From the NCBI GenBank assembly GCA_951230915.1, contig OX579634.1:55379570-55443569 (forward strand): a stretch of 64,000 bases of DNA. The letters run 5' to 3'. Positions 31,685-53,127 of this stretch are shown piece after piece. Numbering within the stretch: the first letter of the stretch is position 1; every line of letters begins with the position of its first letter. Below the pieces are notes generated by a model that ran no database searches, was not told the origin of the DNA, and saw only the letters and a program-made list of their open reading frames with translations. Made by a program: the position numbers and the translations under genes. Source of the stretch: Antitrichia curtipendula. Its lineage: Eukaryota; Streptophyta; Bryopsida; Hypnales; Leucodontaceae.

Positions 31685-31950
31685 CCTCTAATTCCTGACT
31701 TCTAAATATAACTCTAGATTTTTACTTCTAATTATAACTCTAGATTTTTACTTCTAATTATAACTCTAAATTTTTACTCCTAATTATAACTCTAAATTTT
31801 TACTCCTAAACTTAACTCTGGATTTTTACTCCTAAATTTAACTCTAAATTTTTACTCCTAATTTTTAATTCTAAATGTTTATTTCTAATTTTTTAACTCT
31901 AAATTTTTACTCCTAATTGTAACTCTAAATGTTTACTCCTAATTTTTTAA
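31685..31950. repeat. AT-rich minisatellite split by the TTAA transposon
   Basis: About ten imperfect units of 23-25 bp, around AACTCTAAATTTTTACTCCT followed by AATTAT. Two more units resume at 53,124-53,175 on the other side of the 21-kb element. The variant with TTTTTTAACTC at 31,893 shows the uninterrupted TTAA target. Confidence 0.75.
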
Positions 31951-31978
31951 ATGCCAGATTTAACTACTTCTGGACTTT
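31951..31978 (+). repeat. Left terminal inverted repeat
   Basis: About 28 bp starting ATGCCAGATTTAACTAC. It is immediately followed by sequence able to pair with it (TTCTGGACT ... AGTCCAGAA), so the end itself can form a small hairpin. Confidence 0.8.
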
Positions 31979-32004
31979 CAATAGTCCAGAATTAAAGAGA
32001 TGGT

Positions 32005-33280
32005 GAAATCCCCCGATCTACCTCAATTTCTGCACTCATAAGTCTTTTGGAGAGTGCTTCTTCGTGTGCTTGGAAATGCTAGAAAATTTGTAAATTACTA
32101 TTCCGTAGTTGACTGTGTCAGAGTTCACGTGTCTGGATTGGGAGATCTGTGGACCAGGTTTCCATAATTTCAGCATCCCGTTTACAGCCCACGTCCCCGA
32201 ACCTATCGAGAGATCCCACGATGACAACTAGTTCAAGCAAATACGGCTCCGAGCCCTATATTAATACCTCACTCACCGTTCTGTTTGAAACGAATGCATC
32301 GTGAGATCCCCTGACAAGGTTGTCGAATATGCGGCAGCTTCAGTGACAATCTTTGTGTCGAAGCGCTACAGTTTGATTCATGTGCTGTAGACAGTGCAAT
32401 TTATAGATACATTAATGGAAGAAAACTTGGAATTCACTGGAAGTCCCAAACATCACTTCAGAATTATCAAACAAGCACTTCCTCTCGGGAAGAAGGAGAC
32501 CATTTTTATCTAAGCAGGAGATCCCCCGATGGAGTGCTAATACAAGAAACATTGTCATTTCACACTACATCCAGTGGAATGACAGGACTGTAGACAAGTG
32601 AGTCACAAGTGTTCAGACATTCAGCATACATCTGTAGACTGATGAATATCGGCTACTATACTATTTCATCTAAGGTATTTCAGTTTGTGTGGAGAAAATC
32701 GGGGTTCTATCACTACTGAAATACATCCAGTCTCTGATGTCCACGTAATTCTGAACATGCAAAACCCAGTCGACTGGAATTCCAACACGGACTGAAAGGG
32801 TAAAAAAATAAATGCGTATTCAGACTAATCTTTGTGCATGTATAATCCAAACACTGTATTTGTCATTGATAAAAACATGAACCACTTCCATTTCAGCAGA
32901 GGAAAGAAAAACAGCCCGCACTTCACATATCAGGTGACTGCCCGTGTTTCGCACGCATAATGAACACCATAAACGAATTCATATATTCATCAAGATTTAT
33001 GATGCTAATACATGTCACATAAAAACAACACTGAGAGGTTCATCGTCTAACAGTCGAACTCAAACAGGGTAGTGTACATAGAAAACCTAACTTTTGACTA
33101 AGCTACCTCAACGTCGAAAGCCTCGCGGGATCTCACGATTTCCGCAGCGACCTGAACAATGCATCGTGAGATCACATGATGGCCGCGACAACCCCCGCAA
33201 TGCATCGTGGGATATCACGATAGGCGCGCTACTCCACCGTATGTCGGGAGATCTCACGATGGATTACTGTTCTCGGACAA
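32005..33280. other. Left subterminal region with palindromes
   Basis: Non-coding 1.3 kb beyond the end of the DUF7869-like gene. Half or full palindromes lie near 32009, 32212, 32299, 32519, 33128, 33163, 33204-33221 and 33247, the last four packed into ~140 bp. Confidence 0.6.
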
Positions 33281-33289
33281 GGCGCTTGA

Positions 33290-36200
33290 TCACGGGTCCA
33301 ACACGTTTGCCCGATTCAAATTTGCCAAGGTAGCCTCCCTACTCTTCTTAGGAATGGTCCTTGATTTCAGATCCACTATTTTCGACCAATTCGCATACGC
33401 CACAGCAGCTGCGTCAACCCAGGTAGGGGCTGAATCTTCAACAACCCATTTACCGTACCAGCAATTCCGGTACCTCAACTCCAGCGTACTTTCGGAGTTA
33501 TCGGGTCGCCAATACTGAATCAAAAACTTCCCGTAATTTGCGTCTCCTTCCAGTCTGCATACAGTAGACAATGCTCTTCCTTGCCAAACAGCACATGTTT
33601 CCAGGACTTCCGGCCTAAGAAGTACCCATGAGCCTGGTCGTATGTCCAGCCACGGATTGAATCTTTCCATTGGCGCTTCATTTGCGGGGCCGCAATAAGG
33701 TTCGGGTTCCTCTTCTTCCTCCGGAATCACATCCATGGGATTTCCTTGGCGAGGGACTCCATTCTGCGCTACCCTCCAATCATACTATGGCCAGAAGCCT
33801 TCCACCAACTCCGGAGGACACTCAGGTAGTGGCTCCTTCAGCTCATCCAGTACGCACTTCTAGTATTCCACGTAAGGGCCGAATGCAGCTGCAAATCCCT
33901 CGCATTTTGACATTCCTTGTTGCCAGTACTGAATGTACTTCTCGAGTCCCACCAAAATGAAACCCTTGTTCACGGTAGCTTTCCGCGCCATTTCCCTTGC
34001 CTTCTCTTGATTTCCACCCGCGACGGGAACCTCGTTGCCCCACATGGGCTTAAATGGAACAGGCTTCGGACAACCGTGAAGGAGCATGGGGCGACCATTT
34101 TCATCTCTCCTCCAAATGCGTTGAGAAGGTTTATTAGATGGAAGCCACTTTGAATCAACCGTTGACTCCTTGTAATTCATGACGGGGACCCCATCAGTGT
34201 CCACGTAGAACTTGAATAGGTGCATCTCCCCCAATCCAATTAATCTTTCGGAGCCACCGGTCTAGTAACCCTCCACGAACGCCTTGAAATCCCCCACCTC
34301 TTGTATAAACTCCGGCAGAAATGACAATTCTTGAGACTGCATGAAGGCTTTCATGAGGTCAGCGACGACGAAAGTGTTCTTGGTCTTGAGTGCCTTCGAA
34401 AGGTGGTTGAAATAGGCATCGATATCCTCGTGAGTATGTCCGACTAGTAGAAACCCGACCTGAATTTCCTTGAAGACACCTCGTGCAGTGAGCAACGACA
34501 AGAACGCCATTAGGTATTTGTTCTTGTTATCCTTAGCAAAGTTGTCGAGTTGAAGATATAACTTTTCAGGAAGGGGGGTCCTACCGACCCGAGCTCCTGG
34601 TTCAGTGAGAGTCAGGCTGTCCATACATCTCGACTTTCCTTTGAGCAGTGCATGAGGGTATGGAAAGAGGTCGCCTGCCTCTCGAATCGGTGGACCCTCC
34701 AGTCGGCGCAACAACCTTGCCAAAGACGAAATGGTGAAGTTGGAGTCTGCCGGCCAACACAATGGAGCATAATGGGCGTACGCACCGTCACTATAACCAT
34801 GAGCTACCATTCATGTGACGCTCATGGGAAGTTGCCCCAAACCCGCCGTGGCCTTTGTCGTCACCCGCATTCTAGGGAGAGCCGTCTTCACCGTATCCAT
34901 CTTGTCGTGAATTATACATAAAATTCTCCGTGGATCTCGTTTGGATTCCTCACGCCAAGAGGCATACAGACAACGGCAAGACGCTTGGTGATTCAGATGA
35001 TGAGCCCTCTGATTCATGAACTCCACGTATTGGGGGCTTCCCTTCGCGGACTTCAGGATGTACTGCTGTAGATCGTCACACAGGGTACATTTTGCGAACG
35101 AACTCCCAACAGGCTTAATGTGGATGTTGTTGAAGTGGTCCTTCTTAATTCTACTAATGGTCGACTGGCTAACGGGCGGCAGACCGTAGTCGGCATTCAA
35201 CTGGAAAAACAGAACGACTAAGCTTCAGAAACAGTACGAGCAAAAAGAGCCAGCGAACGAAAATGACAAACACTATTCCAGAGAAACGATCGTGACATCC
35301 CACAATTGTTGATCCAGTCGAGGGATCTCACGATCACTAACTGCATTACTCAGAATCAATGGGTTTACCTCGTTAGCATCCGCTTGGACTCGTTTCCAGT
35401 TTCTGCCTACAGGTAGATATTTAAGAGTGTCCACTCGGCCATTACCGATACTGCGCATTTGGTGGGGCATTTGATCAACGTTCTCGTCAATAATGGCTTT
35501 CATAGTCCCTGTAACCTGAACAGTCCGAGTCCTCAGTCGCTTAATCCCTTTGTTTCCGTGCGTCCCCGAATTCACGCCGTCGTTGTACATCTCGATGTAA
35601 GTGTGGTAGGTCGACTTTGGGATTCCGTGAATTATGTACCACGCCGTACCACAAACTTCCACTCCTTGTAGTGTGATAAATTTTCGCTTCCGATCCCTAT
35701 TCATTTTGTGGAGCTGCCCTCCTTGTGTAATCCCATATTCGCGGCGGTCCTCGAACGACTTCAAGTAGTATTTCTGCCTAAGCAACAGCGTCAACTCGTG
35801 GTTAAAATGCTGACAACACGGATGTTTGCAGCACTTTTGCGAGCTCACTTTGCGGATCTCTTCGTCTGCTGTTTTCCGGTCTAACTGTGATTCCTTCAGC
35901 TTTATACTGGGTTTACGGACTACAAAGCGATATGGTGCTTTCATTCTACCTCCGAGATAAGCGAGAGGGTCGTCTGTATCTGGATTGGCGGCGAAATGAT
36001 CCACGGTCTCCTTCAACGACCGACCGCTTGGAAACCAGCACTCCGACAATGGCCACCTCTCGTGCGACATTATGGCTTCCTCGTTACCCACAAAAACATC
36101 GAGGACTAATACACCCACGAAGCCCTCACCAAGTGTTTCATCCTGGAAATGATCCTCCGCCCTCCAGCAAATGATACGGCCCGACGAAACATGGAGTCCC

Positions 36201-36649
36201 CATTCGTCTTTCCGATGAACATCAAGTGCAAACCAGGCCCCTTGGCGAATATATGGACAGGGATCCATTGGGGGATCCCTCGACGCTCTTACAACGTCGG
36301 CGATTCTCTACAGCACGACACATCCCTGAACATCATACAATGTTCTATAACTCCTGTATTGGGGGTTAAATCTTAAGTTCTGGAACGCTAACTTTATGGA
36401 ATGAGGCTGCACTAGAATATAAATCCAGAGCTCTACAAGTAGAGGCACACCCAGCCACTGGCCCTGAGGACGAACCTCCTTAACAATCCCGGATCCGACT
36501 TCACCGTATCCAGGAACAAACAGCTTAACCCAATCACCGATCAAGAACGATGGAGATTCATCGCTGGACTCCTGTGATCCACTTCCCACATGCTCACCGC
36601 GTACATATGGAACAATCGCATCAGCAGCGGACTCACTAAATGAATCCAT
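33290..36649 (-). pseudogene. DUF7869-like probable transposase of the TTAA element
   Basis: Two exons, 36649-35369 and 35200-33290, join in phase across a 168-bp GT-AG intron (1,063 codons plus TGA 33292-33290). The frame is broken by TAG 36310, TGA 34813, TAG 34264, TAG 33862 and TAG 33787 (first bases), with no frameshift. N-terminal residues ~30-180 hold two SH3/Tudor-like beta segments (W-V-K-L-F-V-P-G; I-R-Q-G-A-W-F-A-L). A Cys/His cluster follows (C-C-K-H-P-C-C-Q-H). Then come I-I-H-D-K-M-D, Q-L-D-N-F-A-K-D-N-K-N and V-G-H-T-H-E-D-I-D, the hallmark blocks of DUF7869 proteins. A third Tudor-like segment is C-terminal. Acidic residues in these blocks suggest an RNase-H-fold DDE nuclease (inference). 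Confidence 0.65.
35201..35368 (-). other. Intron of the DUF7869-like gene containing two palindrome copies
   Basis: The donor GAG|GTAAAC and acceptor TTTTTCCAG join two in-phase exons. Palindrome-family sequences lie near 35,285 and 35,325 inside it. Confidence 0.6.
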
Positions 36650-37867
36650 TCTCGGTGATTTATGGCGAAGAGATCTCGAAGATTTGTTGAACCTACAAAA
36701 ATCATGAACTATACCAGGAGTTAGTTTAGTTAAGAGATCGGCGTTCCCTTCGTAGCCAAGGAACCTGACGACAATGTCTTCAGTTCCGGCTGACTACTAA
36801 GGAAACACTTGCAGTACGATATACAAGATACCTAGTCAATCATCAACAATAGTGTCAGGGAATCTAAGGATAGCAGGTCTTGAAAAATGAATAGAGTACC
36901 CGGACAAGGTACGCAAGAACATCTGATGTCCACAAGCGATCGTGAGATCACACGATGCCCATGAAGGGAGCACTAAGCCAGTACGTACATTGAAGAGTAG
37001 GCCACTGGAACCAGACAGAAAGGTCCACACACCAAGGATCAATGCGTCGTTGGAACCCACGACACACAGGTCGTTGGGTCACCCTTTTCAGAGATCGTGG
37101 CATTCCACGATCCTCCTACCAAATTACGCCTGGAGGGAGTGAAATGCTAATAAACAAGTAAACGAACACAATTGTGCAAGCAGATCCCAATCTCATATCT
37201 AATCGGTCGTGTGATCCCAGGACCAAAACATTCTAGGATCCACGAAACAGACATCCCGAGACCTGCTCATTAGAAAGAGAGACAGCTGGATTCCTTGGTC
37301 GTCGGGAACCGAAGAAGACATAGTCCCAAGTTAACGAGACCCAGAACCAAATTTGGTGTAGTGAATCGTTGCATCCTACGAAACCAAGATCGTGAGATCC
37401 CACGATACTACGATCATGTGATCCTCCGATTTCTGGGTCGCTGATTTCCTCCATTCAAAGATCAGCGGGAGTCACTAAACTTTAGAATCACCGATCGTGG
37501 GATATCACGATCCTGTCTGATACGTGCGCGTACTACTCTATCGTATATCACCGTATCTAGACTTTGTCCTCAACATACGACGGCACTGTGGCTGTATTTA
37601 CAGGCACATTAACCTCTGTCTTCTGCCGTCTCCAAGTGAACCTCCATGTCACCAGAGCGTGGTGATCGCTTCACTAGGTGAGCTTCACTAGGTGAGTTTA
37701 TCCTAAGTAAATCTATTGCTCGGAGCAACCACCCGCAGTCGGACTCTTCTGCACTCTGAATCTACACGCGCTTGAAGCGTTTCACGAAATTGCAGTGGCA
37801 TGCATTCGACTGATGAAACACTCAGGCTCAAAATTCCAGTGTAGTTGATAGGAATGCATTGCTTACC
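36650..37867. promoter_or_regulatory. 5' region of the DUF7869-like gene, palindrome cluster
   Basis: About seven palindrome-family copies lie between 36,938 and 37,515, including one at 37389-37406. A GT donor at 37866-37865 (CACGAG|GTAAGC on the minus strand) suggests an upstream leader exon around 37,868-37,990, making this a leader intron. That is inference. Confidence 0.4.
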
Positions 37868-38600
37868 TCGTGAATAACGGCCCGGTCAAAGCATCGTCCG
37901 CCTCCACTCCAATCTCGTCGCCTACACCGGTAGACACCGACTCCACTCCACCGCAGCGTGCTCCACTTGTTCACGTGTGCAAGCAAAAAGGAGAAGCTGA
38001 AGGTTCGTTTCAAGTTATAAAACACCTGCACTGGAATTCAAGAGCTGTGGATTCCCGCCGTGAGTTTTCAAATTTTCAAGCGTTCCTTTTTTTCAAATGT
38101 TGGTTGGATGCGTTCTAGATTGCCGAGCTGCAATCAAGACGTGGAGTACGTGTGGTTTTACACTTTGGAAGTAGAATGAACTCTCGAATTCCGCGCTGCT
38201 CCGACCACAAGGAGGGAGGGCGTGGGGCTCTTGACTTTGTGAATGGAAATTCGCAGCTCCAGTGTTCCCTGCATTCCGGATCTTCACTGACATTCTGAAA
38301 TTCGCCGCATTCAAGGATGGTATCCCTGCACGGTTTCAGAGGAGTCAATGATGCTTCGAGCAAAGAGGATTCGGTCTTCTAGACTTTCATTTCCCGGATT
38401 TCACACGCGTCCAGGTCAATACTTGGACGAGTAACTCTGTGTCCCTCCACCTCAAGGCGATCTAATGACCTGAATACCAACATAACGGTTCCAGAATTGC
38501 TGTGCCCTGGTCTGTTCCGTGCCTAATGTGCTCTGTAGGTAGGGAACTTTTTTGGTTCAATCTGTCAGTCGGTTTAGGCGAGGAGCGGGGGTTTGTTTTC
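37868..38600. other. Possible leader exon/promoter region of the minus gene
   Basis: Mixed-composition sequence without palindromes. The stretch 37,868-37,990 is GC-richer and ends in a good splice donor on the minus strand. No domain-bearing frame is seen. Confidence 0.3.
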
Positions 38601-39334
38601 CTTAGCCCCAGACCGCCTGCGGTTTTAGGGTGTGTACCAGTGATCCCAGAACTGCTTTACTGAATTTAGTGAAACATGTTACCTAGGTTATTAGGATTTA
38701 GTGCAATATGCTACCTCCTCAAGACAAATGGGACTCAATTTTGGCTACCTTGAGGGTGAGTAGTATTAGAAAAAATAAAGAAGATAGGATTTTGCAAGTT
38801 TTAAAGAATCATTGGGAGTACTATAATACAAAACAACCAAAATAGCTGCTAATTTCAATATAGAGGAAGTTGCACATTGCCTACCAAATTCTATTGTTTG
38901 TTGCAATCTTGACTAAAATCTAATTTTTTCAAGGATTTTTTTTAATACACTTTTAGCTCCTGAAGTTTTTCAGTAGCAATGGAGCAAAATTTAGCCACTT
39001 CTATGATCATTAGTCTGTACTGGAACCCCTAAATGGCCAAGGCACCAGTTAGGTTTAGGTGGTTTCCGAAGAAGTGTTGAGGTGGCAACTTACAAGAAAA
39101 TGCTCTAGCCAAATATTTTAGTATTCAGCTAAATTTTATATGGAGTTATGTTTTCATCCACATTTTTCGATGAGTGTCCTTTATACATGACATTTTCATT
39201 CAAAATTTTAAAAAAATTAGAGCAATTTGGCATTGTCATCTAAATTTTCTTTAAATTTCTTCATATACTAGTAGGCTCGATGCAACCCATTTATTTTTGA
39301 GGGATGGAGCTACACAAGGCCAAAAAATAGAGTT

Positions 39335-39405
39335 TACGGATTAGGATTTTTAGGATTTTAGGGTTTAGGGTTTTAAGGGTTTAGGATTTAGGATGTAGGG
39401 TGCAA
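39335..39405. repeat. Degenerate telomere-like TTTAGGG tract
   Basis: Tandem variants of TTTAGGATTT, TTTAGGG and TTTTAGGG over ~70 bp, interstitial. Confidence 0.55.
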
Positions 39406-40954
39406 GGCCCCCGTAGGTGGTGTCTAAGAAACTTTTTTTGGAAAACTTTCTTAAGATGCAAATGAATTTCACTAAAAGTCAAACCATACCAAATCCCTAA
39501 TATTTTTAGTAGAAAATATTATTGAAAGATTCTTTTTTAAGTCTAACCCTAAACCCAAAAACCAATTTTGGGGCATGAATGATTATGATTTTTCCTATTC
39601 AAAATTTGTGCAAAGGGTTCCATTGCAATCTTGACTTCTTGTATTGTTCAAGGGTCTTGGAAATTTGCCTCAAATACTCTAGATTTTAATGAAAAAATCA
39701 TTGACACTAGGAATTCTTTATAAAAATTGGTAGTGTAGATTTTGAGATGTCATAAAATGATTGGGCTTATATATTTGATTAGGCCCTTCAACCTCATATT
39801 TTGGGGGTCTTGAATGTTTTAGATTTGACATCTAGAAGGAGAATGAAAGGTTTTCATAGTTTTAACACACTGATGATCAAACATTACAATCTTTCAATTG
39901 ATACAAATTATGATGTTGTTGTGTTTCCTTTTCCTATGTGATATTTAACATGTGTAGTTTGAATTTGTATGGTTACAATACCCCAAAATTTGATTCAACT
40001 TATCAAAAGGTTGGCCTCTAGTTCAATATAGAGTAAATTCAAAGAAGCAAAAAACAAGCCTTCGGTATTTAGAGGTTAACGTTTCCAATGAAATTCTAGA
40101 GCATTGGAATCCAAAACAAAAACAAATTCTCCAAAAAAAGAGGTAACTATTGAACCCCTCATTTTTTATTAAATGAAGGATTAGTTTTCACCTAAATCCC
40201 CTCATTTGCAAAAAGAATTCACAATAATTTCAGGTTCACAGGTGTTCATACTTGATATTTTATATTTGAATGACTGAAGTCTTAAGGTTTGGGTTCCACG
40301 GTTATAAGGGCGATTGTTCGCGGTTTAAGGACGCAAAGTACACACTTGTACGGTTGAAGTTTAACATGTGAAGAGTCATGATTTTTGGATTTAAGGTTTA
40401 GCATTCAAGAGGGCATTGTTCATGATTAATAATGCTCAAGCTTAGGATTAATTCATTTCAGGGTCATGGTTATTGGTTTAAAGTTTAGGTGTATACTTCA
40501 TGGTTTAGGGTGGTGAATTCTAGAGTCTTTGATTTTAGATAGATGATTTTTGAATTACCGGTTCCAGAACTTTTTGTTCAAGTTTTCTAAATTCATGCTT
40601 AATGGATTTTGAGATTTGTCACAAATGATTTAGAAATTATCACTAAGTAAACTTGTATTTGGACTACATCGTTCTTCTAGGCTACGTGGTCCATTTTGGG
40701 GAAAAGTTGCATGGATTGTTTCCGCTCATGAATCTTAACTTCATAAGCAGAGTATTTACAACTTCAATCTACATTTTTTTTTTTCATCCCAATGTGTATT
40801 ATTTTGAATAGGACTTATGGAATGAGGTTTCTTTGAACCGCAAGACGCCGGGAATAACATTATATTCATTAGTTTGGGAGATTGAGGACCTCCCAAAATA
40901 ATCATGTTGATCTCAACTTAAATCAACAACTCGCATTTAAAATGAGAGGTTTGA

Positions 40955-41215
40955 TGTAAATTGACATAAAACCTTTCAATATTAGGTCAAATCTTTGAAA
41001 GATTTTCTATCCGTTTAACTCGAATCGAGTTAAATTGATATAAAACCTTTCAATATTAGGTCAAATCTTGAAAGGTTTTCTATCAATTTAACTCGAATCG
41101 ACTTAAATTGACATAAGACCTTTCAATATTAGGTCAAATCTGAAAGGTTTTCTATCAATTTAACTCGAATCGACTTAAATTGACAAGAAAACCTTTCAAT
41201 TTTAGCTGAATTGAT
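40955..41215. repeat. Tandem ~70-bp repeat with internal inverted symmetry
   Basis: Three to four units containing CCTTTCAATATTAGGTCAAA, then GAAAGGTTTTCTATCAATTT, then AACTCGAATCGA. Each unit can fold through CCTTTCAA...TTGAAAGG. Confidence 0.65.
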
Positions 41216-42399
41216 ATAATACTTTTCGTTGAGTTTTTTTTAAATAACCTCTCATTTCAATGGAAAACTTCCATTTGAATGTGTCGTCGTTTTGAGTCCC
41301 ATTTTTTAGTTACGTGATCTATTTTGGGAAAAGGTGCATGGATTATTTCTGCTCATGAATCTTAACTTCATGAGCGGAGTATTACAACTTCTACCTTTTA
41401 CTTAAAAACTTAAGTTAATTATCTATACAATTTGAAGACAGTGTTTTTGTCAAATTTGAGTCAGATTTTTAGAAGTTCAATATTGCCTTCCAGTTTGGTG
41501 TTTCAGTGAAAATCCTCCGCTGTCCCTCTGCCAATCCAATTTGAATGCAAGCGCTTTACTTTGCTAAAGCCTCAGAATTGGAAGCCACCGGAAATTTATC
41601 ATTGATTTAGGATGCAACTGAAGTTAGGCCACAATATACCCAAAAAATGCAGGACCTAAATCCGGTAGCAAGAAAAATGAATTTGATCATGAAATTGGGG
41701 TCTTCACGCTTTGCTATTCATATTTCTAATTAATAGCAATAAATATATTGAGGGAGGTGACTGTCTCAAATTTTTTTGTCTTCCAATATAATGAAAGCAT
41801 CTTGCAGTTTCAGTTATCTAATAATTTGCACTCCGTTCTCATAGTCGCTCGTGGAGTTATAGTATTAAAACATGGTCAACTTGCGGTGCTTAAAAACAAA
41901 AATTTCAATTTTGGGGCATAAAAAATGTTTGTTTGAAAGGTTCTATGATGGGAATAAGGACTTTGGACTTCATGTTTTCCTGGATCTAACATCGCTAAAC
42001 CCTCTTATACTCTTATATTTTTAGTATCACCCTATGATTGAAGGTTTTATATATGATTTGAATCATTACATGAATTTTATTAGAATCGATTTCTATAAGA
42101 AAACACTTTATTTTTTCATTTGAGAGTTTGTTTAATTTTTGGGGCATTTAGACTTTCATATTTGAAGCCTATAACTTACTAATAGAGGAGTTTAAGACAT
42201 GCAAGTAACTATGACTATGAGTATAAATGGAAAAGAGAGTAACTTAATTCTCATTTATGGTAAGTTCATGGTAACTTCATTTTCACTTATGGTATCCCAT
42301 TTTCAATGATGATAACTTCATTTTCACTTATGGTAAGTTAATATTCACTTATGACTTCGTTTAGGGTCATGAGTGACCCGAAACCGTAGATTTCTCAGT

Positions 42400-42988
42400 A
42401 ATAATGAGTAGGGCTGACAGTGATTTCCTCCGCCGTCTCTCCCCTGACAGCGCCACGTCGACAGGGGGAGCTGGGTTTCCCTTCCCCAGTGCACACGATA
42501 TCGAGTGCTCTTCCCCTTCACCCAATGTCATGTGCAGCTGGAGAGTTCCCTTTCGTATTCCCTGCAGAGCTTGTGTTCCGCTGCGGAGTGTGCGCGAACT
42601 TGACCGGTTCATGAGTGTTTGACGCCGCGATTTCGATTGTGCTTGACGGGGCGAGTTTGATTGTGCTTGACGCCGCGAGTTTGATTGTGTTTGACGCCGT
42701 GAGTGTCCAGGAGTTGTGGGCGGAGCGTTGAAGGCGGTTGCGCGTGGGGCGTCGTCATTTACGGAGGGGAGGGAGGCGATCGAATTCCGTTTCCAGTCTG
42801 TGGGTGGGAGCTATCGCTAGTGGAGACGAGCGCGTGAGATTCCTCGTTTTGGCGACCCAGCATTTGCTGGTGGAGATGGGCGCGCAAGGTGGTGGAAGTT
42901 GGCGGCCAAGCATTTGCCGAAGGAGACGTTTCGTGAGCTGCGCACCGGATTTGTTGTGGCGAATGTGTGCGCGAACTTGACTCCAAAG
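42400..42988. promoter_or_regulatory. GC-rich putative promoter and leader exon of the giant plus-strand gene
   Basis: The composition switches sharply from AT-rich to GC-rich. Four tandem 24-bp units (GACGCCGCGAGTTTGATTGT plus four more bases) lie at ~42,620-42,705. A strong donor, CCAAAG|GTGAGT, is at 42989. Overlapping frames are short and frame-inconsistent, so I read this as promoter plus 5' untranslated exon. Confidence 0.4.
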
Positions 42989-44618
42989 GTGAGTTTCTTG
43001 CACATTCTTCCGCCGACGTTCATTGTTTGAGTTTTTTATTTCCATTTGCACAGACTGGCTTCATTTCTAGAGGGAGAGAACTACCGATTCAAGTGCGCGG
43101 CGTTAGACAGTCTTCATAATTATACTCGAGCTCCTAATTATCCTTTCCACTTTCTAGCTCGCATCCCTTCTCGACTGAAATCCCCCATTTACATTATTAT
43201 TTTGAATGTTCTCAGTTCTCAAATGATGCATGTAGTAAGACAGTCATGGCATTGCTTGTTTTGAAATCGACACTAGGCATGTTCTGCATTAATTTCCTAG
43301 TATCGTGACTTTTCGGTTTCAATTGGCCTGAATGTGTCGTCGTTGAAGGTTGCAATTTCTAGTTTCGTGCTGAATGTGATCAGGCTTGAATTATGGCAGT
43401 AAGATAGTCCAATGCATCTGGAAAATATTGTTTTGCTATCGAAACTAGTCTTCACATTCTGTTGTACTGATTGGATCGTATGACTTTTTTTTGGCATCTG
43501 TCGATTTTTGTACAATTGTATTGCATTCCGGACTCGGGCAAGCTGTCGGTACGATGGCAAGGACTTCAGCTCTGCGTACAGGAGGTCAAGTAGATTGGAA
43601 CGCCCCATAAGTTTCTAAATGCAACCCTCATTTCCTTTTTGTGCATGCAATGCGAAGCTTTAGAACAGTGCAATTAAAACTAGGGTGAAGGCTGTTGTTG
43701 TTGTCCTGTAATTTAGGGTACTCTGCACTCTCTTTACTCTTTGTTACAAACCCTGTCGAGAGTTACAGTAGTGCAAATCAGTAGAACAATACACGGTAAT
43801 AAGTATCCCACCTTATTACCGTGCTTTGAACCCCTAAACCTGTGCATCGTGGGATCCCACGATGCGCCATTTCTTAGTCAGTTGGCACTGAAAATCATCG
43901 TGAGATATCACGATAGGTTACAATTTCAAGATATTAGAGGACTGTCCATCGTGGGATCCCACGATCAAGGCTCATGGAAGAGCCTAATTATGTCCCGAGG
44001 ACCGTTCTCGCTGGAGTAGAACACGCCACATCGTGGGATCCCCCGATGAAATGTCGTAGAGACTCCAAGGAAATGCAAACCAAACCTCAAGTGCAAATGA
44101 GGAAGGAACAAAATCCGACATTGTGGGACATCACGATGCATTATTGTGTGCTGCCTCATCGAACACAGACGAACAGGTGAATAGGCCTCAAAGATTACTC
44201 ATCGTGGGATCTCACGATCGATGTAGACAATACCCTATGAAAATCATTAATAGAAGGCGGCCGTGAAATATCCCGAAAGCATGATCGACATACTTCAGAG
44301 GTCATCGTGATTTCCTACAATGTCTATGCCATCGTGATATCCTACGATCTAGAAGCTCTCGTGATAGCCTTACACTCCACCGTCCAGTTAGTTAGGCGAT
44401 ATCCCGTTCTATATTGTCCCAAAACAAGGAGTAGGCGTCGTAACGACTGCTAACTAGAATGAATCACAGATGTCTTACGTCTCAAGGAAATGTCATAAAA
44501 TCAACAATCGTGATATCCCACGATCGTGCTTGTAATACAAGCATATAGAGAGAATTAGCATTGCAAGACTATTGATTTTCCATCTCCCTCACTAACATCA
44601 CTGTCTACAATGCTGCAG
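42989..44618 (+). other. Putative 1.6-kb leader intron with the densest palindrome cluster
   Basis: Between a good donor (42989) and an acceptor near 44,618. Eleven palindrome-family copies lie between 43,845 and 44,524, including perfect ones at 43845-43864 and 43948-43965. No coding frame is apparent. Confidence 0.45.
43845..43864. repeat. Palindrome copy, perfect 20-mer
   Basis: CATCGTGGGATCCCACGATG is a perfect 20-bp palindrome and serves as the consensus for the family. Other strong copies: 33204-33221, 37389-37406, 43897-43914, 43948-43965, 44030-44047, 44120-44137, 44201-44218, 44507-44524, 51121-51138 and 51969-51986. Confidence 0.9.
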
Positions 44619-45920
44619 AGAACATCAATTCGATGACGATCCGGAAGATTGTTCACCGAGGAAGCTTAGTCACTTTGTCGACTCCTGGATCCGCGACTTC
44701 AAGTACAAGGGTCCACATAAACCTGGAGCTATATTCCGATGCGACCAAAGCGTTACGGAATGGGGCCTGGTCTGGAAGGTTGACAATGACGGATCAGCTT
44801 TGATTCTTCCCTCTATCCTGAACAGCGGCAAGGGACATGGAACAGGTGGTCTCAAGGTCGTGGAAGTGCAAGGACTTGACAACAAAACAGCGCTTCTTGT
44901 CATAGAAGAGAAGGTACCCCTATCCACTGAGTCTATTACCTACGGCTTCATCCTCGACTACGAGACGATGAGCATGGGACTCTGTGAGACCATGACAGCC
45001 AAGGCGCATTTAATGTGCAAGGACCCCGCGAAGCCTTCTTGGAAGCCTCAAGAAATGAAGAACCAATGGGATATCATTCAGGAAGATTTGGCTGAATCGA
45101 GTGCTGCCCCCAAGGCAGTCGAAGAGGATGCTCCCAAACCATCACCAGCCAAGAAGACCAAGAAGAGGAAGTCAGTGGTTGGAGCTCCAAGCAATGACGA
45201 TGATGTCGGACAGGGTTCAGCCGGAAAGAGGAAGAAAGCTGAGACCCCGCTTTTGCTGCACGAGGCTGTCGCTCTAGGGGAAGCAGAGATCAAGAAGATG
45301 CGACCGGAGCAAATGATGGCGATGAAGACATTGTACGAGAAATCCTTCAGTGGCTTCTACAAATGGGGAAGAAAAGCCCTTCGTGACAAAAATGGGGAGC
45401 TGATCCGCGTGAACATGAAGTGCTTGCACGAGGCATCAAAAGCACTGCTCGTATACAGGGCCATCGATCCTGAACGACTGGACAGAGTCACGAGGAAGGC
45501 ACGTATCATGCCAGAGTATGACTCAAAGAGCAGAGTGATTATAGTCCTCCCACTTAAAGTTGGCCCATACGGCCCAAATGGCGTGGTGACGCACTACGAG
45601 AAGACACCACCGAAACTAGAAATCTTTGAAGACCCGAAGACGCAATACTTCATTATTGGGGGACAGCACACTGTCAAGGCCTTCAAGAACCTGATTGATG
45701 CTAATGAAATTCCCGAGGCCGACAAAAAGCTCGCGTCTACGTTCTACATCATTCCAGTCTGGACACCCAAGGTCAACCACGGAGACCTACTGCACTTCTC
45801 GCGGGCACTGAACCAAAATCTCGCTGGTGAACAGAAGGAGATGAATTTCACCAAGCAGCTCTTGTACGCAAGAACAAAATGGCGCAGTATGGGAAGTCCG
45901 CAGCCCGCCATAATGGGGAG
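44619..45920 (+). pseudogene. Giant gene exon 2: ParB-like motif region
   Basis: An open frame of over 400 codons beginning just after an acceptor (CTGCAG|AGAAC); the frame continues upstream of the first ATG, so the start codon is in an earlier exon. Residues ~165-205 are Lys/Pro/Ala-rich and nuclear-localisation-like. Near 45,650-45,690 the protein reads F-I-I-G-G-Q-H-T-V-K-A-F. This resembles the G-x-H/R motif of ParB/sulfiredoxin-fold domains, which bind or hydrolyse nucleotides or DNA. The 3' border is uncertain (about 45,885-45,940). Confidence 0.55.
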
Positions 45921-46435
45921 AACTCACACGCAAGAGTATAATATAAGATTCCAATTCATATTTATGTTGACTCTGCATCTCAATGGAACACTTAGCAGTC
46001 ATTGTGGGATCCCATGATCGACTTGTACTTACAAACATAAGCAGACGAAATTGTAATGAAATCACTGTGGGTTCCACCATAGCTCCGGCAAAGCATTCTC
46101 AAATCCTCGGTGGACAGAAATAAGGTCTGTGTGATATGGTTTCTGGCTTCATTTCTAGGAATTGTATTGTGGATTCCTGTTCTTGACTTTTCGGATCAAC
46201 TATCGGAATATCAATTGTGTGATCCCACGATGTCCATGTTTGTGTTCTACTTCCATTTCCTTCACAATGCCGTCATTGTAATATCCTCTGATGGTTTTCT
46301 AGTCTATCCCACACAACTGACGCTATGCCGACTTGTTTTACTGTAACTATCGATGATCGTGGGATCTCACGACTTTGTATCCCATTCATGGTGTCAACCT
46401 CATCATTGGATACTCACTTTGACTCTGTTGTGCAG
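45921..46435 (+). other. Intron of the giant gene with three palindromes
   Basis: Non-coding between two good frames. Palindrome-family copies are near 46,000, 46,215 and 46,354. The acceptor is TTGTGCAG|GCATT at 46435/46436. Confidence 0.5.
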
Positions 46436-47797
46436 GCATTTCATCTGTGCTTGGTGACAATCTTTGCGGGTGTGAAGACTGTTGATAACTCGGAACTGCG
46501 AATACCCCTGCTCTTCCTGGAGGACGACGCCGACGTAAAGAGGTGGATCGACATTGAGGAGAAATTCATGAAAGGATATCTTCCCGATGGAACGGGCCTG
46601 GTCGATGTATGCGGGAAGCAGGAGCGAAAACCCCTAACGCAGAATGACTTCAAGACGCTCTATGGACTTCGACCGGAGGACATAAACTACCTTGCGGATC
46701 AAGTGGAAGCCAACGTCCTCTGTGTAAAGAGTTCGAGGATGACAGGTCAGAAGAGTGGCCGGCAGAATTTCAAAATCATCCCTCTCAATACCGCTGGTGC
46801 AAGATTGAGGCTGGTGAGGGCCATGAAGAACGAGCTCTTGGCACACTATACAAATCAACTGCTGCCCATGAGGAAGATGGAGTATGTACCATATCCGGAA
46901 TCCACTTGGGAGAACTTTGCGACCGAGAAGGACATCGGAAGCCACGAATTAGATTTGTGGGTGAACAAGGCCATGGAAGTCCCTGCTGGGAAGAAGTGGC
47001 TGGAAGGCAGGACAAAGGGATTGAACAAGACGTTCGACCCAAAGGACCTCCCCGAATTTGTCATTAATATGTGGGAGTCGTTCTTCAAGTCCGCTGTGGA
47101 GGATGAAGTGACACAAGCGCATGTACAGGATTTCTCGAAGCACTATCTGTGCAAAATGATGGACGAGAGAATCTGGGATATCAGCAAAACTTTGTCGGCC
47201 CCAGACGTCAAGGCATGGCGGGGAAAGAAGAAGCGTCACCTTTACATCTGGTTCATGTTTGAGGAGGCATCCTATGGATCCCGTACGAAGATGCTGGAGT
47301 TTGGAAAACTGAACAGACTCTTCAATGCTCTGGAGTTCTACGACCCTAAGGACAAGACTATCTCACCGTAGGCTGGCGCCGTCCTCATCACAGATGCCGA
47401 GGGATTCCACACTATTGCGAGCTATCTCGAGAAAAGAGATGAGGAGATGAGAGCAAGGTTGTGGGACTGGCACGTTGTGACTTACATGGCTGGGCCGGAC
47501 GACTTCTTCCCTATGTCACCGGCCGGGGAGGGGTTCAACGTCTTTCTCGTCTTCATCTTCGAGCACATCCCTCACGGAACCAAGCATGATTCCTTCAAAG
47601 CCTACTTCCCTGGACTAACTGATCTGAAGCAGACTTACAGATCGCAAGACATGAAGGATATCCACCCGTATTGGCGACGACCGCATGTGCCGTACCTGAA
47701 GATCAAGACGGCGGAGGAGATATTTAAAGGACTCGCATACACCGACCTTGTCCTCGTGAATGTCAACGGCGGTCCCGAGTTCACCTACCTGGGACTG
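46436..47797 (+). pseudogene. Giant gene exon 3: large unrecognised domain
   Basis: 454 codons in one frame, broken once by TAG 47369-47371. It starts after TGTGCAG and ends at CTG|GTAAGG. The content is globular, with many Trp and Lys residues, and is not recognised. The exon joins in phase to the next. Confidence 0.55.
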
Positions 47798-47897
47798 GTA
47801 AGGTCTTGGGCTCCACAATCTTCCTTTCATTTCGAGCAACGCAATGTTTTGGTCCTGCCAGTTCCAGGCACACTAACAACTGATTGGTGTATTTTAG

Positions 47898-48188
47898 AAT
47901 TTAGGAGGTGTTCAAGTACTGGAGGTAGTGCATTCCGCTAAAGCTGTGACGGCAAGTGAGGTCTTCGCCAAACAGATTTGGGACGACAAGGAAGCACCCG
48001 CGGCAGCTCCTCCAGTTCCAGAAGGCACCGGCGAGGCCGAGGATCAACTGGACATGGAGGCTGATAATGACGAAATCAACCCATCCGATCCTCTAGATTG
48101 CCATGACGAGCATGAGGACAATATAGTGAATGAGGTCATCGACGAATCCTATGAACGTATAGGAACAAGGTCGGTTGATCACAATGAG
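47898..48188 (+). CDS. Giant gene exon 4: acidic linker
   Basis: 97 codons between acceptor TATTTTAG and donor GAG|GTTAGTG, in phase with both neighbours. It is rich in Asp/Glu/Ala/Pro and probably disordered. The following intron (48189-48313) contains a palindrome copy near 48,217. Confidence 0.5.
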
Positions 48189-48313
48189 GTTAGTGTGCGT
48201 TAATTGCTGAACCATCATGAGATCCCCTGATCTTGGGAAGCTCACATTAGTGATTTCTGGTGTTTGATTGGGATTCTAAATGTTCAAGTGATTTGTTTTT
48301 GGATTCGACGCAG

Positions 48314-50042
48314 GAGGAAGATGCGCCTTCAAGAACTCTCGCAAGACGGTCGGAGGACGTAAACGTCACTGACTCCAACGTTCAGTCGCCTCCAACGGGT
48401 CCAAGCAATATGGTGGAGCAACAGGAGCATCATTATGAACCGCCAGCACCAAGTCGGCTGGGAGATGTAGCCAAGCAGCCACAGAAAGCTCCTCAGCCGG
48501 AAGGAGCTGGACGACAAGTGCATTTCCTGTCCGACAGTTCAACAGGCGATGAGGTTACAGGGTCTCTGCTCGAGAACCCGAGGACATCCAGAAGGAAGAC
48601 TAGAAGTAATCTGGCCAAGTATCTTGGCTGTGGAAGAAATACTGCTGGGAAGAAGGCTGCAAAGCGACGACAGCAAGGTAGTGCAGCCGCAGTGCAGACA
48701 CGGAAGGTGGTTAGTCCCAAAGCGAATCCGAACAGGGACGTTGCCGAGGCGGAATAAGATCCGCAGATGTCAACTGGGATTGTGAATCCCGAAGCATCAC
48801 ACGCGGCAGGCATACTTCTAACATGTGCTTGTCGGCCGTCAACTCTGGAGACTGTCGATTTAGGCGTTCCCGACGAGGAGGTGCCGTAGACAGCTAGTGG
48901 CGATGGAGTTATCAGGAATGTGCCCGATGGGACAGAACCTGCCCGAGGGATGAACCAGACGGAGGTCAGAAGAATTCCAGGTCCATCAGGGGATCCCACA
49001 ATGAACACAAGGACTGTGTTGGACATAGTGAAGGGTCTGGAAAACTCAGATGAAAGCACCGGCCGCCAATCAACTGAAGGGTGCCGAGATCTTACTCTTG
49101 ATGGAGACCTCCCGGGGATTGACGCCAGCAGACTTGAGTTGGAGGTTCCCGCGACAGATGCCCCTGCACCAGGCTCTGGAAACCGTGATAAGGGGGCTGG
49201 GGCGAGCACACAAGCATCGTAGGATCCCCTGATCGTCCAGGAAACGGAGGTCGTCATGGCGCAGGTTGATCAGGCAGCTGGCGAGGGTATTGACGGACAT
49301 CTGGTAGGATTAGGAACTTCTACATCGGGGGATATCACAATGGTCGCTTCGCGAGGTCTCCTGCTCACGGGAATAACGGTGGACGAACAAGAGGACACCC
49401 TCGTTGACTTGGTACCCATGAGTCCGAGATTCAGACCGAAGGTGACTGTGGATATTGCTTCTGTCGCCTCCACTGTTGCACTGGCGGTGTCAAGTGAAGT
49501 GGCTCCTGGAAACGGTGAGGGAATTAACGAAGAAGTGCTGGAGGCCTTACCATATGAGGCCGCAGACATAATGAAATTGTGCGTCGTAGATGCGGTCAAA
49601 TCACTTGCTGAATCTCCGAGTAATTATTTAATTGCGTTCGATTTCATCGACCCTAAGGATCCTTTTCGAAAGACGAAACAGCATACGCAAGCCGTAAGGC
49701 GAGCGCATCGATTCCTGTACAAACCATTGTTTAACTGGGCATTTCAGAATGGGCCGCGTGTAGGACTGGAAGGAGGGGATCCAATGGATCAACTATTCAA
49801 CGAGGAAGGCGATGAGGAAGAGCAAGAGAGCGACGACGACATGGAAGAGGGGAAAGGGCCAATTTTTGGCGACGATAGGGGGAAAGAGGAAAATCACGGC
49901 GACGAGAGGGGGAAAGGGCCAATGGTTCAGGACAAGATAGGAAATCGGCAACGGGACGATGATGAGGGCAATAAAGCATTTTAGGGTGTCGACAAGAGCA
50001 AAGAAGGGCCTCCCCGAAAATACATCCGACCCCGGATTCCAG
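48314..50042 (+). pseudogene. Giant gene exon 5: long low-complexity region with four stops
   Basis: A single frame across 576 codons with TAA 48755, TAG 48887, TAG 49220 and TAG 49982 (first bases) and no frameshift. It is rich in Pro/Ser/Thr, then Asp/Glu/Gly repeats (G-K-G-P-...-G-D-D/E-R-G-K). Three palindrome-family copies (48,985, 49,216, 49,323) lie in coding sequence, read as S-G-D-P-T-M, S-stop-D-P-L-I and S-G-D-I-T-M. It ends at the donor CCAG|GTAAGA. Confidence 0.5.
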
Positions 50043-50128
50043 GTAAGAAGTTAACCATTTTTTATAATGCTTATACTTGAGAACGGATTCTTAACTGGAC
50101 TCTAACGCGCTGTTTGTCGGATTTTCAG

Positions 50129-50793
50129 CAGGTTGTCGAGTCATCGAAGTCTCTCGTAAAGAGGTGCGGAAGCCGTTGAATAAGGTAGAACCGCGGCCGT
50201 ATTTTGTGATCTTTGACCTGAATGGAGTTCTAGTTCACAAGACTTTCGATGATCGTAATAGACGTCGCTATGCTGTGCGACCGAGTTGCCCACACTTCCT
50301 GGACTGGGTGCATAGGACTGTTAAACTCGCATTCTGGAGCAGTATGACAAAACAGAATGCGACATTCGCTTTGAACCAGATGCTGTCCGGGGCGGTTGTG
50401 AAGCCGAAGGATGTGCCTGTTCTCACGCAGGAGGACTGCACACTCTCGTCTTACAGAGACCGTCGTCGTCCGGACAGGCCTTACTTTCTAAAGGATCTGT
50501 CACACTTCGCCCATAAGCTGAATTTGCCGACACAGGAAAATCTTCTACTCATCGATGACGACCCATTAAAGAACCTCCAAAACGACTGTCATAGCGCCAT
50601 CTTCCCCACAACTTAGGATGGTGACATGAGAGATGATTACTTAATGGGGAAGCTGTTTCCTTATCTCAACCAACTTTTCAAGTCACAGGAAGCTGTCCCA
50701 GCGTATGTTAGAGCCCACCCGCTTCCTCATGGTCAGAATCCGGAGATCCCGTTGACCAGACCGGGGTGTGACATATTGAAGGGTGTAACTTAG
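50129..50793 (+). pseudogene. Giant gene exon 6: FCP1/NIF-like HAD phosphatase domain
   Basis: Joined in phase by a GT-AG intron (50043-50128). It contains F-D-L-N-G-V-L-V (FCP1 motif I, second Asp replaced by Asn), F-W-S-S-M (motif II-like) and L-L-I-D-D-D-P-L-K (motif IV-like), and ends near D-D-Y-L...P-Y-L. FCP1-like domains dephosphorylate Ser on proteins such as the RNA polymerase II tail; the Asn change may impair catalysis. TAG 50614-50616 interrupts it, and ~58 further codons of family-like C-terminus follow before TAG 50791-50793. Capture of a host phosphatase domain by a transposon gene is the likely origin. Confidence 0.65.
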
Positions 50794-50829
50794 ATGTCGT
50801 CTGTATCTTCTACGTGGGACTGGATTCGG

Positions 50830-52050
50830 AGATATCACGATCTCATTCTATCATACTTCATTACTTACTGTTTAATACTCTTGAACTCACTGTGAATTTT
50901 GTAAATGCATTTTTTAAATACTTGACTTTCCCATTTCTTAAGAGTCATTTTAAATTTTACTCATTTTGTAAGGCACATTGTAAATATTATTGTATGGTTA
51001 TATGTGAAATCCATTTGTGAGTTAGAGTTATGATTTCAATTGGATAATTTTGACCTCCATAATTATCGTCGTCCGTGAATATACTAAGATGTGTTTGTAT
51101 AGTATGCAAGTTCATTTCCTGTCGTGAGATCTCACGATGGACTGTAGGGGTGATTTTAACTGACATGTGTTGTCGTACTCATTGTGCACAGCGTCAGTCT
51201 CTCTTCTTCTTTTTATTAAATCGCATATCATGTTGCTGGGGATAATGAAATTGTATTTAACTCTGAAGTATTTTATTTCTGTTTCTCCGAAACAACTGAT
51301 GGATCATTGCATTTAGAATGGTAAGTAAGATTGAAGCCATGACATATGGCATTAAGAAATTAAAGCAAGTAAAGAGATAAATGAAGAGAATGGAGCAAAG
51401 AGAAACATGAAGACTAAGTGAAGGAGTAGAGTGGGGGACCTACACTCCAGCAATCCCCATCTCGTCTGAAGACGATGGTAAGGTCCCATCATGTCTCGCG
51501 AAGATGGGGGAATGCTGGGAAGCGGTATCTTCAGTAGATTTTATTAGTGTGGGCCTCATAATGTTTAGCTGCTTAGTTCAATCAGGAGATTGCATGATCT
51601 TCCCTCTTGCCGTCCAAAGAATTTAATGGATCACCATGTACATGTCCGATAGTACAAACAGTTGTGCGTCTTTCGTCCCCGTAATGTCCTCCATTTTGGT
51701 TTATGTAATAGGGGATGATAGTTGTAGTTGTACTTATGCAATTTGTTGGGCGTGTTCCTCCTATTGCCAGCAAGACTTCACCCTAAAACCGCTGAAGTCT
51801 TGAGTTGAATTTGTTTACGTAATCTTCTCTCTATGGCTTGATTGGGAGATCTCATGGTCGTGTGACTTTGCCTCTAATGGATACTCTGCAAATGAGATTT
51901 TCACTTGATGTTCTCTTTTCTAATCCGCCAGTTCTATTCGGTACGCGGTTCTGTAGTAATGCATATTCATCGTGATATCTCACGATCATTCGACGTCTTC
52001 TTCTGTCTGTACATCATTTCTGTGTGCTGAGATGTACTTGGTCTTTGCAG
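50830..52050. other. Right subterminal region I with palindromes
   Basis: Non-coding AT-rich DNA with palindrome-family copies near 50,825, 51121-51138, 51,579, 51,842 and 51969-51986. Confidence 0.5.
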
Positions 52051-52527
52051 AAGGCGATGCTCCTTGTACTGATTGGGGATCTCTGCGTTAAGGGCAGTGT
52101 GGAGGATCTTCCACAGAATATACAAATACGGGCTGGCTTCCACAATCTTCTGCGATATCTTGTTGAAGAAACTCACTGTGGCTTGTGGGCGGCAGTGCAA
52201 CCTTCGACATTAGCTGTTTTCCTTTGACGTATTCTACCGCTGGAGATTCTTTCAAGGTTCCTTTTCTTTTCTGGATCCGACAATCCACGCAAGAACCAAC
52301 TGTATCCGCGGCGTCATGCACTATTGAGGACTCTTTCAAGTAATCCTCGGACGCGCAGGGTACTCTTGAATGACACTGTCGTAATGCTTGTTCTCGATCC
52401 TCTGAATTGGACACGTCCGCATTTACTTCAACCGGCGTTGCATGTGAGGGATGATGTAGATACTTCAGATTGGCAATGTGCGCACGTTATAGGACCGCGC
52501 TTTGATTGGTCGTGGGCCCAGAAATAA
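52051..52527 (+). pseudogene. Additional exon block of the TTAA element, unrecognised
   Basis: After the acceptor GTCTTTGCAG one frame runs 159 codons to TAA 52525-52527, broken once by TGA 52225-52227 (CGA likely). Hydrophobic L-L-V-L-I-G-D-L and V-V-M-L-V-L-D-P-L-N-W stretches are visible. It could be the last exon of the giant gene or a third gene; there is no known domain. Confidence 0.4.
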
Positions 52528-53095
52528 GCATAGGTTCACATGGAACTAGTGGCACTTATTTGATTGGCACCCATTCGATTTGAATGGCACGTATTTGTTG
52601 CATCCAAATGATTATAAAGTCCTTTTCGCTCGTTATCACTTGGGTTGTGCACAGTCATTGCTTTGGCTGTTTTGTATTGTGTTTTCAAGTAGTGGGTTCA
52701 CCCTATTCGTTTCACCAAAAAGTAAAAGATGATTATGAATTGGTGAATCCACCTTCTGTATTTCACTGTTATTACAACTTATCAAATGTCCGTAACTGCA
52801 TGAATGTTTTGCCTCATCACATCTTTCTTCTTGGGTAATGCTTTGCGAAATATGTCGTGACATCTCCCGATCTGTAATGTCGCATATTTAAAGCCAACCC
52901 TAAATACGAATGCATCAATTTGTTCCTACACTTTAAATCCAAAAGGGATACAATTCCACTGCATCAACAATCTCCCGATGACTCCACATCCTAAGGCAGT
53001 TTAAGCCTCCATTGAAAGGCATTGCGGCCTTAGTTTACATAAGATCAGGATATCCTACGATGCTCTAAACCTTCACAAAGTCCAGAATTCCCACT
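52528..53095. other. Right subterminal region II with palindromes
   Basis: Non-coding, with palindrome-family copies near 52,850, 52,975 and 53,045, up to the right inverted repeat. Confidence 0.5.
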
Positions 53096-53123
53096 AAAGT
53101 CCAGAAGTAGTTAAATGTGGCAT
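53096..53123 (-). repeat. Right terminal inverted repeat
   Basis: The complement begins ATGCCACATTTAACTAC and matches the left end with one mismatch. TTAA follows at 53124-53127, then the resumed minisatellite. Confidence 0.8.
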
Positions 53124-53127
53124 TTAA

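Follow-up and report, generated by a model that had tools for sequence, protein, structure and literature searches.

The VANDAL transposons of Arabidopsis are Mutator-like elements, and the bacterial REP palindromes and the parS sites of ParB are systems in which several to many palindromes are recognised by a dedicated protein. For VANDAL21, published accounts describe binding of VANC21 to a 9-bp motif in non-coding element DNA and a loss of methylation over the element caused by VANC (PMC5735166, PMC10398659), and for the soybean CACTA elements Tgmt*, palindrome-forming subterminal repeats are described at no more than 159 and 732 bp from the element borders (PMC2613891). Here we analyse 64,000 nucleotides of the moss Antitrichia curtipendula (contig OX579634.1, positions 55,379,570 to 55,443,569; hereafter the window), in which a palindrome recurs throughout much of a DNA transposon whose minus strand bears a transposase-like, DUF7869-containing gene (the minus gene) and whose plus strand bears a gene of no assigned family (the plus gene). 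With moderate confidence, we read these palindromes as putative operators of an element-encoded dimeric protein in a family of DUF7869 transposons.

A palindrome array confined to one transposon

A half-site position weight matrix (PWM) was refined on the window and applied symmetrically, with 14 bits as the main threshold. At this threshold 40 sites were found, all inside the element with centres from 32008 to 53052, compared to a mean of 0.15 in shuffled sequence, bearing out the report of about 40 copies of an 18-20-bp palindrome in a preliminary description of this DNA. The confinement to one transposon claimed there also held at lower thresholds: at ≥8 bits there were 43 sites, with none in the 42.8 kb of the window outside the element, and at 6 bits there were 46 inside and 2 outside. 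The pattern proposed in the same description, with up to three mismatches, gave 65 strand-wise matches, in which most palindromes are counted twice, once per strand, and a shuffle mean of 0.21.

The half-site reads C-A-T-C-G-(T, rarer G)-G-(A/G)-(G, rarer T)-A, or CATCGTGRGA as a consensus, with the dyad centre right after the last A. Information fades about 10-11 bp from the dyad centre, individual palindromes reach 22 bp of perfect symmetry, and CA or TG replaces CG in 22 of the 80 half-sites. Isolated half-sites, scored at 9 bits, showed no enrichment in the element, with eight inside (0.39 per kb) and 22 outside (0.51 per kb); the unit is thus the whole dyad, its spacing fixed.

Six further copies of the element (A-F) were taken from the same genome, three of them (A, C and E) as incomplete stretches, and gave long alignments to the window at 93-98% identity. 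Site counts were 40, 39 and 38 in copies D, F and B, and 31, 30 and 19 in the incomplete copies A, C and E. In the 400-Mb assembly, searched with the reversed pattern as control, the preliminary pattern with up to two mismatches gave at least 3500 matches on each strand, compared to 17 and 30 for the control. Thus the genome-wide scan proposed earlier revealed enrichment, and the equal density in unrelated DNA named as the contrary outcome was seen neither there nor in the window. The matches listed, which cover contigs C1 and C2 and the first part of C3, included 66 exact places. A scored DUF7869 match was no more than 20 kb away from 37 of these, where 0.7 would be expected at random positions; 12 of the remaining 29 listed places are in copies A and B, in which an extra stretch or a deletion distances the scored exon. 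The transposase-like upstream exon itself gave at least 117 scored matches, with at least 40 at 85-100%, at least 48 at 69-77% and at least 29 at 63-68% identity.

Sites lie in upstream regions, introns and both ends of the element

The 40 sites comprise eight in the 1.3-kb left subterminal region, six in the 2.5-kb right subterminal region, six upstream of the minus gene, nine upstream of the plus gene's conserved exon, two and four in introns bracketed by homology, one in a predicted intron, three in open frame with no detected homologues and one in a conserved exon. Density differed sharply between the two homology-bracketed introns (6 sites in 659 bp) and conserved coding sequence (1 site in 5321 bp; p 1.6e-5). 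Most sites thus occupy intronic, leader or subterminal DNA, in keeping with the first description, but not the one at 36275, inside a conserved exon, or those at 48993, 49224 and 49332, in an open frame. The last four left subterminal sites (33130, 33171, 33212 and 33251) are spaced 39-41 bp apart. The PWM scan agreed with the earlier statement that the 38.6-42.4 kb block contains no copies, and the site-free gap between neighbouring sites runs from 37502 to 43854 (6352 bp). The central 5.9 kb is void of sites; in the part of this void outside the AT-rich block, 5.9 sites were expected (P 0.003).

This distribution is difficult to reconcile with sites that serve transposition only, with the transposase or an accessory protein binding at subterminal repeats so that the ends can be paired and then cut, like TNPA for Spm/En. 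Such a role would account for the 14 subterminal sites, the outermost of which are centred 57 and 71 bp inside the ends, and the DUF7869 gene does have a possible helix-turn-helix (a weak HTH_psq match). However, 26 of the 40 sites are internal, the plus-gene leader is the densest region (11.2 per kb, compared to 6.1 and 2.4 per kb subterminally), and the homologous intron and leader carry sites in the examined elements of all three subfamilies, as described below, so that a role limited to transposition is unlikely. Since the sites extend across leaders, introns and both ends, and not the ends alone, they point to transcription or chromatin being influenced along the full element.

The motif is shifted as a set in an element of a third subfamily

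The deciding evidence comes from comparison between subfamilies. Two elements, L124 (subfamily 2, a 70% element) and L125 (subfamily 3, a 66% element), had been selected for their transposase class, with their motifs still unseen, and were compared with the window. L124 contained 13 sites at ≥14 bits and 15 at ≥10 bits. These occupy the subterminal region, the leader, the intron homologous to that of the window and a place equivalent to the exon site, and many of their positions correspond to those in the window. The L124 exon is 75.5% identical to that of the window, while the intron and leader, once the palindromes are masked, score like shuffles when aligned (0.32 and 0.38 per base, compared to 0.36 and 0.37 for shuffles). 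The pattern suggests that in L124 many palindromes either outlasted their surroundings or were regained.

In L125 the palindrome is shifted to CATCGGGAGATCTCCCGATG, with 11 sites at 14 bits using the window matrix and 15 using a matrix fitted to L125. Position 5 was G in all 30 half-sites of L125, compared to T in 59 and G in 17 of the 80 half-sites of the window element and T in 14 and G in 13 of the 28 in L124. This G-type motif, with up to one mismatch, occurred at 470 places genome-wide (control, 0). Six of the L125 sites are at 48-bp spacing, and seven G-type places 48 bp apart lie beside the match C2:1717039. From another 70% element, L126, 1 kb of leader was chosen since no exact site was listed nearby; it contained T-type palindromes that carry a mismatch and are set in a tandem array with a 77-bp period. 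This array, at 600-960 of L126, holds several palindromes, some with the asymmetric centre GAGTTCCC.

On contigs C1 and C2, scored by eye for sites up to 20 kb away, DUF7869 matches of at least 69% identity had an exact T-type site in 12 of 15 cases and a G-type site in none of the 15, whereas the seven matches at or below 68% had G-type sites in four cases, a T-type site in one (in the neighbouring copy D) and neither in two. As judged from these matches, motif type on C1 and C2 tracks transposase class.

These data bear on who encodes the binder. If the operators gathered by the element instead served a transcription factor or repressor of the host, the formal evidence would be the same as for an element-encoded protein. 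The lack of sites at ≥8 bits in the rest of the window speaks against a host protein, as does the fact that one subfamily switched its motif and the others did not, a difference more easily explained if every subfamily has a binder of its own; we regard recruitment of a host protein as improbable. An element-encoded binder is favoured because the whole set of sites hardly shifts unless its reader shifted.

Flanks of the sites

The preliminary description also raised the possibility that the palindromes spread as a unit, which would make them selfish repeats, REP- or double-hairpin-like, multiplying inside the element. This was supported as local tandem duplication: the best-matching flanks belong to neighbours, some of which share flanks (33130-33171-33212). 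Many sites are near-identical, and other subfamilies contain tandem arrays. Flank likeness over all pairs, led by neighbouring sites, was small (7.72 of 30 bases, compared to 7.52±0.05 at random element positions), and the sites are absent from the window outside the element and depleted from conserved coding sequence, making spread as selfish units very unlikely as a general explanation.

The two halves of the palindromes change independently

The earlier statement of frequent mirroring between the two halves predicts an excess of symmetric changes. Among the 80 half-sites, 237 symmetric cells were observed, compared to 240±6 under random re-pairing; in simulations, so low a value had P=0.0045 if 20% of sites were mirrored and P=0.05 if 10% were. 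The result was similar for a stricter 25-site subset (188 observed, 188.3 expected), the subfamily-2 element (100 and 99.4) and the subfamily-3 element (118 and 116.4). In addition, nine orthologous sites traced in 32 copies plus the window, with 29 to 32 usable per site, revealed 105 one-sided changes, one mirrored change and one unlike double change, where about 1.1 double changes were expected. Mismatches in the sense of the transcript showed no bias for G.U (33) over A.C (25; p 0.36), and the window had no Rfam match at gathering score. The claim of mirroring, and with it that of selection for pairing, was therefore not sustained; the apparent symmetry arises because both halves fit the same degenerate consensus.

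A covarying hairpin element was rejected, since covariation between halves was seen neither in the window nor in the elements of subfamilies 2 and 3 nor at nine sites across up to 33 copies. Hairpins in RNA or single-stranded DNA, acting in splicing, double-stranded RNA or replication, might be suggested by the good individual palindromes, several of them intronic, but are largely refuted by the same counts and are extremely improbable.

Each half behaves in a manner consistent with its being read separately, as by one subunit of a dimer. Of the alternatives first proposed, it is dyad binding that gains support from the independent half-sites and from the lack of enrichment of isolated halves, and we consider it very probable, on the pattern of the sites, that the dyads are bound by a protein.

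A proposed operator system and the evidence against it

A dyad with independent halves and strict spacing, avoidance of conserved coding sequence, retention amid unalignable DNA and change of the whole set in one lineage together argue for operators selected for an evolvable dimeric binder. We propose that the binder is a homodimer, each subunit of which would read one CATCG(T/G)G(R)GA half-site with zero spacing, and that it is probably encoded by the element. The element's own protein would then occupy leaders, introns and both ends, and its binding would keep the chromatin of the element open and regulate the two genes, which is the function we prefer; terminal sites may perhaps also aid transposition. 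The prospects that anti-silencing or self-regulation is the main role appear evenly balanced. More tentatively, and short of what we would call probable, this DUF7869 transposon family, on which little has been described, could represent an operator system spanning the transposable element and independent of VANDAL/VANC, in which an element-encoded dimer reads about 40 palindromes, subfamily-private palindromes co-evolve with the protein, each subfamily regulates or un-silences only copies of its own kind, and a tandem Tudor/Agenet-like chromatin module is supplied in addition by the transposase-like protein.

Several observations weigh against operators of this kind. Divergence was 4.5% in palindromes and 4.2% in flanks over six copies, and 2.2% and 2.6%, respectively, over nine sites in up to 33 copies, so the two change at similar rates and selection is not clearly visible within the subfamily. 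The subfamily comparison covers one 8-kb stretch each of subfamilies 2 and 3, plus the 1 kb of L126; the L124 3' flank aligns to the window above shuffles (0.57 compared to 0.36), and some short non-coding L124 pieces align at 67-72% (blastn). The L125 sites were re-fitted with their own matrix, and the units of the L125 array are duplicates. The promoters of the two divergent genes are expected in the site-free central 5.9 kb, an odd void for a simple promoter operator. The ParB-like reading of the plus-gene exon stands at E 0.04, and the structure model of that exon is unusable (mean predicted local distance difference test score, pLDDT, 35.6). Finally, observed/expected CpG of the element is 0.86-0.91, a slight depletion, so that heavy methylation is not evident.

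The roughly equal divergence among recent copies fits neutral decay after insertion and is not proof of function. At CpG positions the rate of divergence is about double that at other positions, both in the palindromes and in their flanks. In the six-copy site table, which did not seek sites missing from the window, a gap in a palindrome occurred solely in copy E, at 35297.

Element genes and candidate binders

The DUF7869 frame matches PF25273 with E 6.5e-36. The window copy is decayed, relatives reading through its in-frame stops at 36308-36310, in the DUF7869 gene, and 47369-47371. A Pfam scan of ten open frames, which left short exons outside and included no dedicated VANC search, placed DUF7869 and the NLI-interacting-factor (NIF) domain above cut-off and two more models below it, with no VANC or Mutator model.

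The modelled structure of a relative of the DUF7869 protein (P0005) predicts confident N-terminal barrels, for which the nearest Foldseek matches were tandem Agenet/Tudor readers, with modest VIA-align scores. The possible helix-turn-helix of this protein corresponds to a weak HTH_psq match in 3 of 13 members (best E 0.13), in a region of low model confidence; in this stretch the subfamily-3 protein differs from those of the window and subfamily 2 at a few residues, each compared as a single sequence. The plus-gene exon with the motif IIGGQHT had four relatives in the protein search. The suggestion that it encodes a ParB-motif protein received a hint from a weak match to phrog_1033 'ParB-like partition protein' (best E 0.04, in two of five members; window frame 0.11), but no ParB match appeared in Pfam, NCBIfam or PDB sequences. 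The stretch 46434-47371 gave a weak ASH2L-like winged-helix match in two of nine exon homologues (best E 0.006).

Structure of the transposon and its surroundings

A PF25273 domain, multiple copies, inverted repeats and a target duplication identify the element as a DUF7869-bearing DNA transposon. Its termini are ATGCCA, and the terminal inverted repeats plus one flanking TTAA are identical at 31 of 32 positions in a blastn self match. Coordinates of the element, its genes and its palindromes are collected in Table 1. The AT-rich block at about 38650-42400 is present in other copies, as far as these were fetched, and is not an insertion private to the window copy. Within this palindrome-free block, a 73-bp tandem array at 40957-41205, which is also an inverted self-match, marks a place where alignments of the other copies break. 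At 51885-51888, all four other copies extending that far (A, B, D and F) have about 190 bp that were either lost from the window copy or gained by them.

Table 1. Features of the transposon and its palindromes in the window
Feature	Coordinates	Strand	Details
DNA transposon, 21,173 bp	31951..53123	.	Ends match in other copies
TTAA, left copy of 4-bp target-site duplication	31947..31950		Right copy 53124-53127; ends set by aligning other copies
Left terminal inverted repeat ATGCCAGATTTAACTACTTCTGGACTTT	31951..31978	+	blastn self match with 53096-53127
Left subterminal region, 8 palindromes	31999..33261		Centres 32008, 32213, 32306, 32521, 33130, 33171, 33212, 33251; PWM scan
Transposase-like gene	34262..36652	-	Conserved exons ~36652-35366, 35194-34946; DUF7869 open frame 34810-34262; homologues P0005-P0047
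Two palindromes in minus-gene intron 35195-35365	35288..35335		Centres 35297, 35325; PWM scan
Palindrome inside conserved exon	36266..36285		Centre 36275; counterpart in subfamily-2 element
Six palindromes upstream of minus gene	36938..37512		Centres 36947, 37102, 37214, 37397, 37421, 37502
Central region without palindromes, containing AT-rich block ~38650-42400	37520..43840		PWM scan
Nine palindromes upstream of plus gene's conserved exon	43845..44525		Centres 43854, 43905, 43956, 44038, 44128, 44209, 44312, 44339, 44515
Plus-gene conserved exon	44602..45945	+	Protein of no assigned family, motif IIGGQHT
Four palindromes in plus-gene intron ~45946-46433	46000..46374		Centres 46009, 46222, 46283, 46364
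Further plus-gene conserved exon	46434..47803	+	In-frame TAG 47369-47371 in window copy
Four palindromes	48213..49342		48222 in an intron predicted by splice-like sequence; open frame with no detected homologues: 48993, 49224, 49332
NLI-interacting-factor-like phosphatase open frame	50095..50616	+	PF03031 E 1.5e-9
Right subterminal region, 6 palindromes	50823..53062		Centres 50832, 51129, 51849, 51977, 52862, 53052
Right terminal inverted repeat	53096..53123	-	blastn self match

The host site of the transposon is a 26-bp minisatellite, in the same orientation on either side; its unit, ACTCCTAATTATAACTCTAAATTTTT, is found at 31698-31944 and 53123-53177, split by the transposon. Around the element are inverted repeat pairs of 1.8-2.6 kb that are 96-100% alike (12846-15480/21706-24340 and 4467-6812/27025-29370), and further pairs in the same range of size and likeness (2024-4432/57579-59987 and 1-1815/15899-17713). 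Frames in or near these repeats match kinase, RING and hAT-dimerisation models. A kinase-like frame at 5069-6367 (-), inside the inverted repeat paired with 27025-29370, matches PF00069 below cut-off (E 1.7e-4), and another at 61421-61915 (+) matches it above cut-off (E 2e-8). The frames at 10146-12095 (-) and 30195-31295 (+) look alike by eye and match no Pfam family at E 0.01.

Comparison with known systems

The preliminary description held that nothing of this kind was known in a nuclear transposon, which is too strong in view of published accounts of palindromic repeats in soybean CACTA elements (PMC2613891) and of a protein-bound motif in VANDALs (PMC5735166). Among transposable elements, sequence-specific anti-silencing was found described for Arabidopsis VANDALs; a second, palindrome-based case in a different type of transposon, if true, would suggest that transposon-encoded, self-addressed regulation evolved repeatedly. 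The shifted motif of the sister subfamily would represent a natural specificity switch, making both the binder and its specificity residues testable.

Compared to the bacterial REP and parS systems, the locus has eukaryote-type gene structure and is a transposon; no REP transposase was found in it, and the link to ParB is the match at E 0.04. The window duplication, TTAA, resembles the signature given for Kolobok elements (PMC9587614). Membership in Kolobok or piggyBac was rejected for lack of TTAA specificity: among the four copies with both ends, the window has TTAA and D, B and F have CCAT, CTAT and ATTG, and so the duplication is 4 bp but not TTAA-specific, because three of the four carry other 4-mers.

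With CACTA/En-Spm elements, as far as the soybean account describes them, the element shares a repeated motif by the ends and divergence of the motif between subfamilies, the binder there, TNPA, being element-encoded (PMC2613891). Tgmt* has CACTA ends and a 3-bp duplication, whereas the element described here has ATGCCA ends, a 4-bp duplication and sites through much of its 21 kb; having neither CACTA termini nor a 3-bp duplication, it was not assigned to CACTA/En-Spm.

The likeness to VANDAL/VANC extends further, in that both have a short, dense motif in the non-coding DNA of one transposon family, in introns and upstream regions (PMC5735166), and subgroups that differ in motif (C-type and T-type in the VANDAL accounts, T-type and G-type here), with tandem expansion (PMC5735166, PMC10398659). 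VANC21 offers the closest worked parallel for the array, and TNPA of Spm the closest for the element ends (PMC2613891). The VANC motifs described are 8-9 bp, with VANC21 sites in one orientation, whereas here an 18-20-bp palindrome is mostly dispersed; same-orientation tandem motif arrays, a VANC trait, do not characterise the window element, and tandem arrays were found in other subfamilies. The element further differs from VANDALs in its DUF7869 gene and 4-bp duplication. In sum, the array would work like VANDAL/VANC and TNPA in these respects, but by the features compared the element is a member of neither group because its ends, duplication and genes differ.

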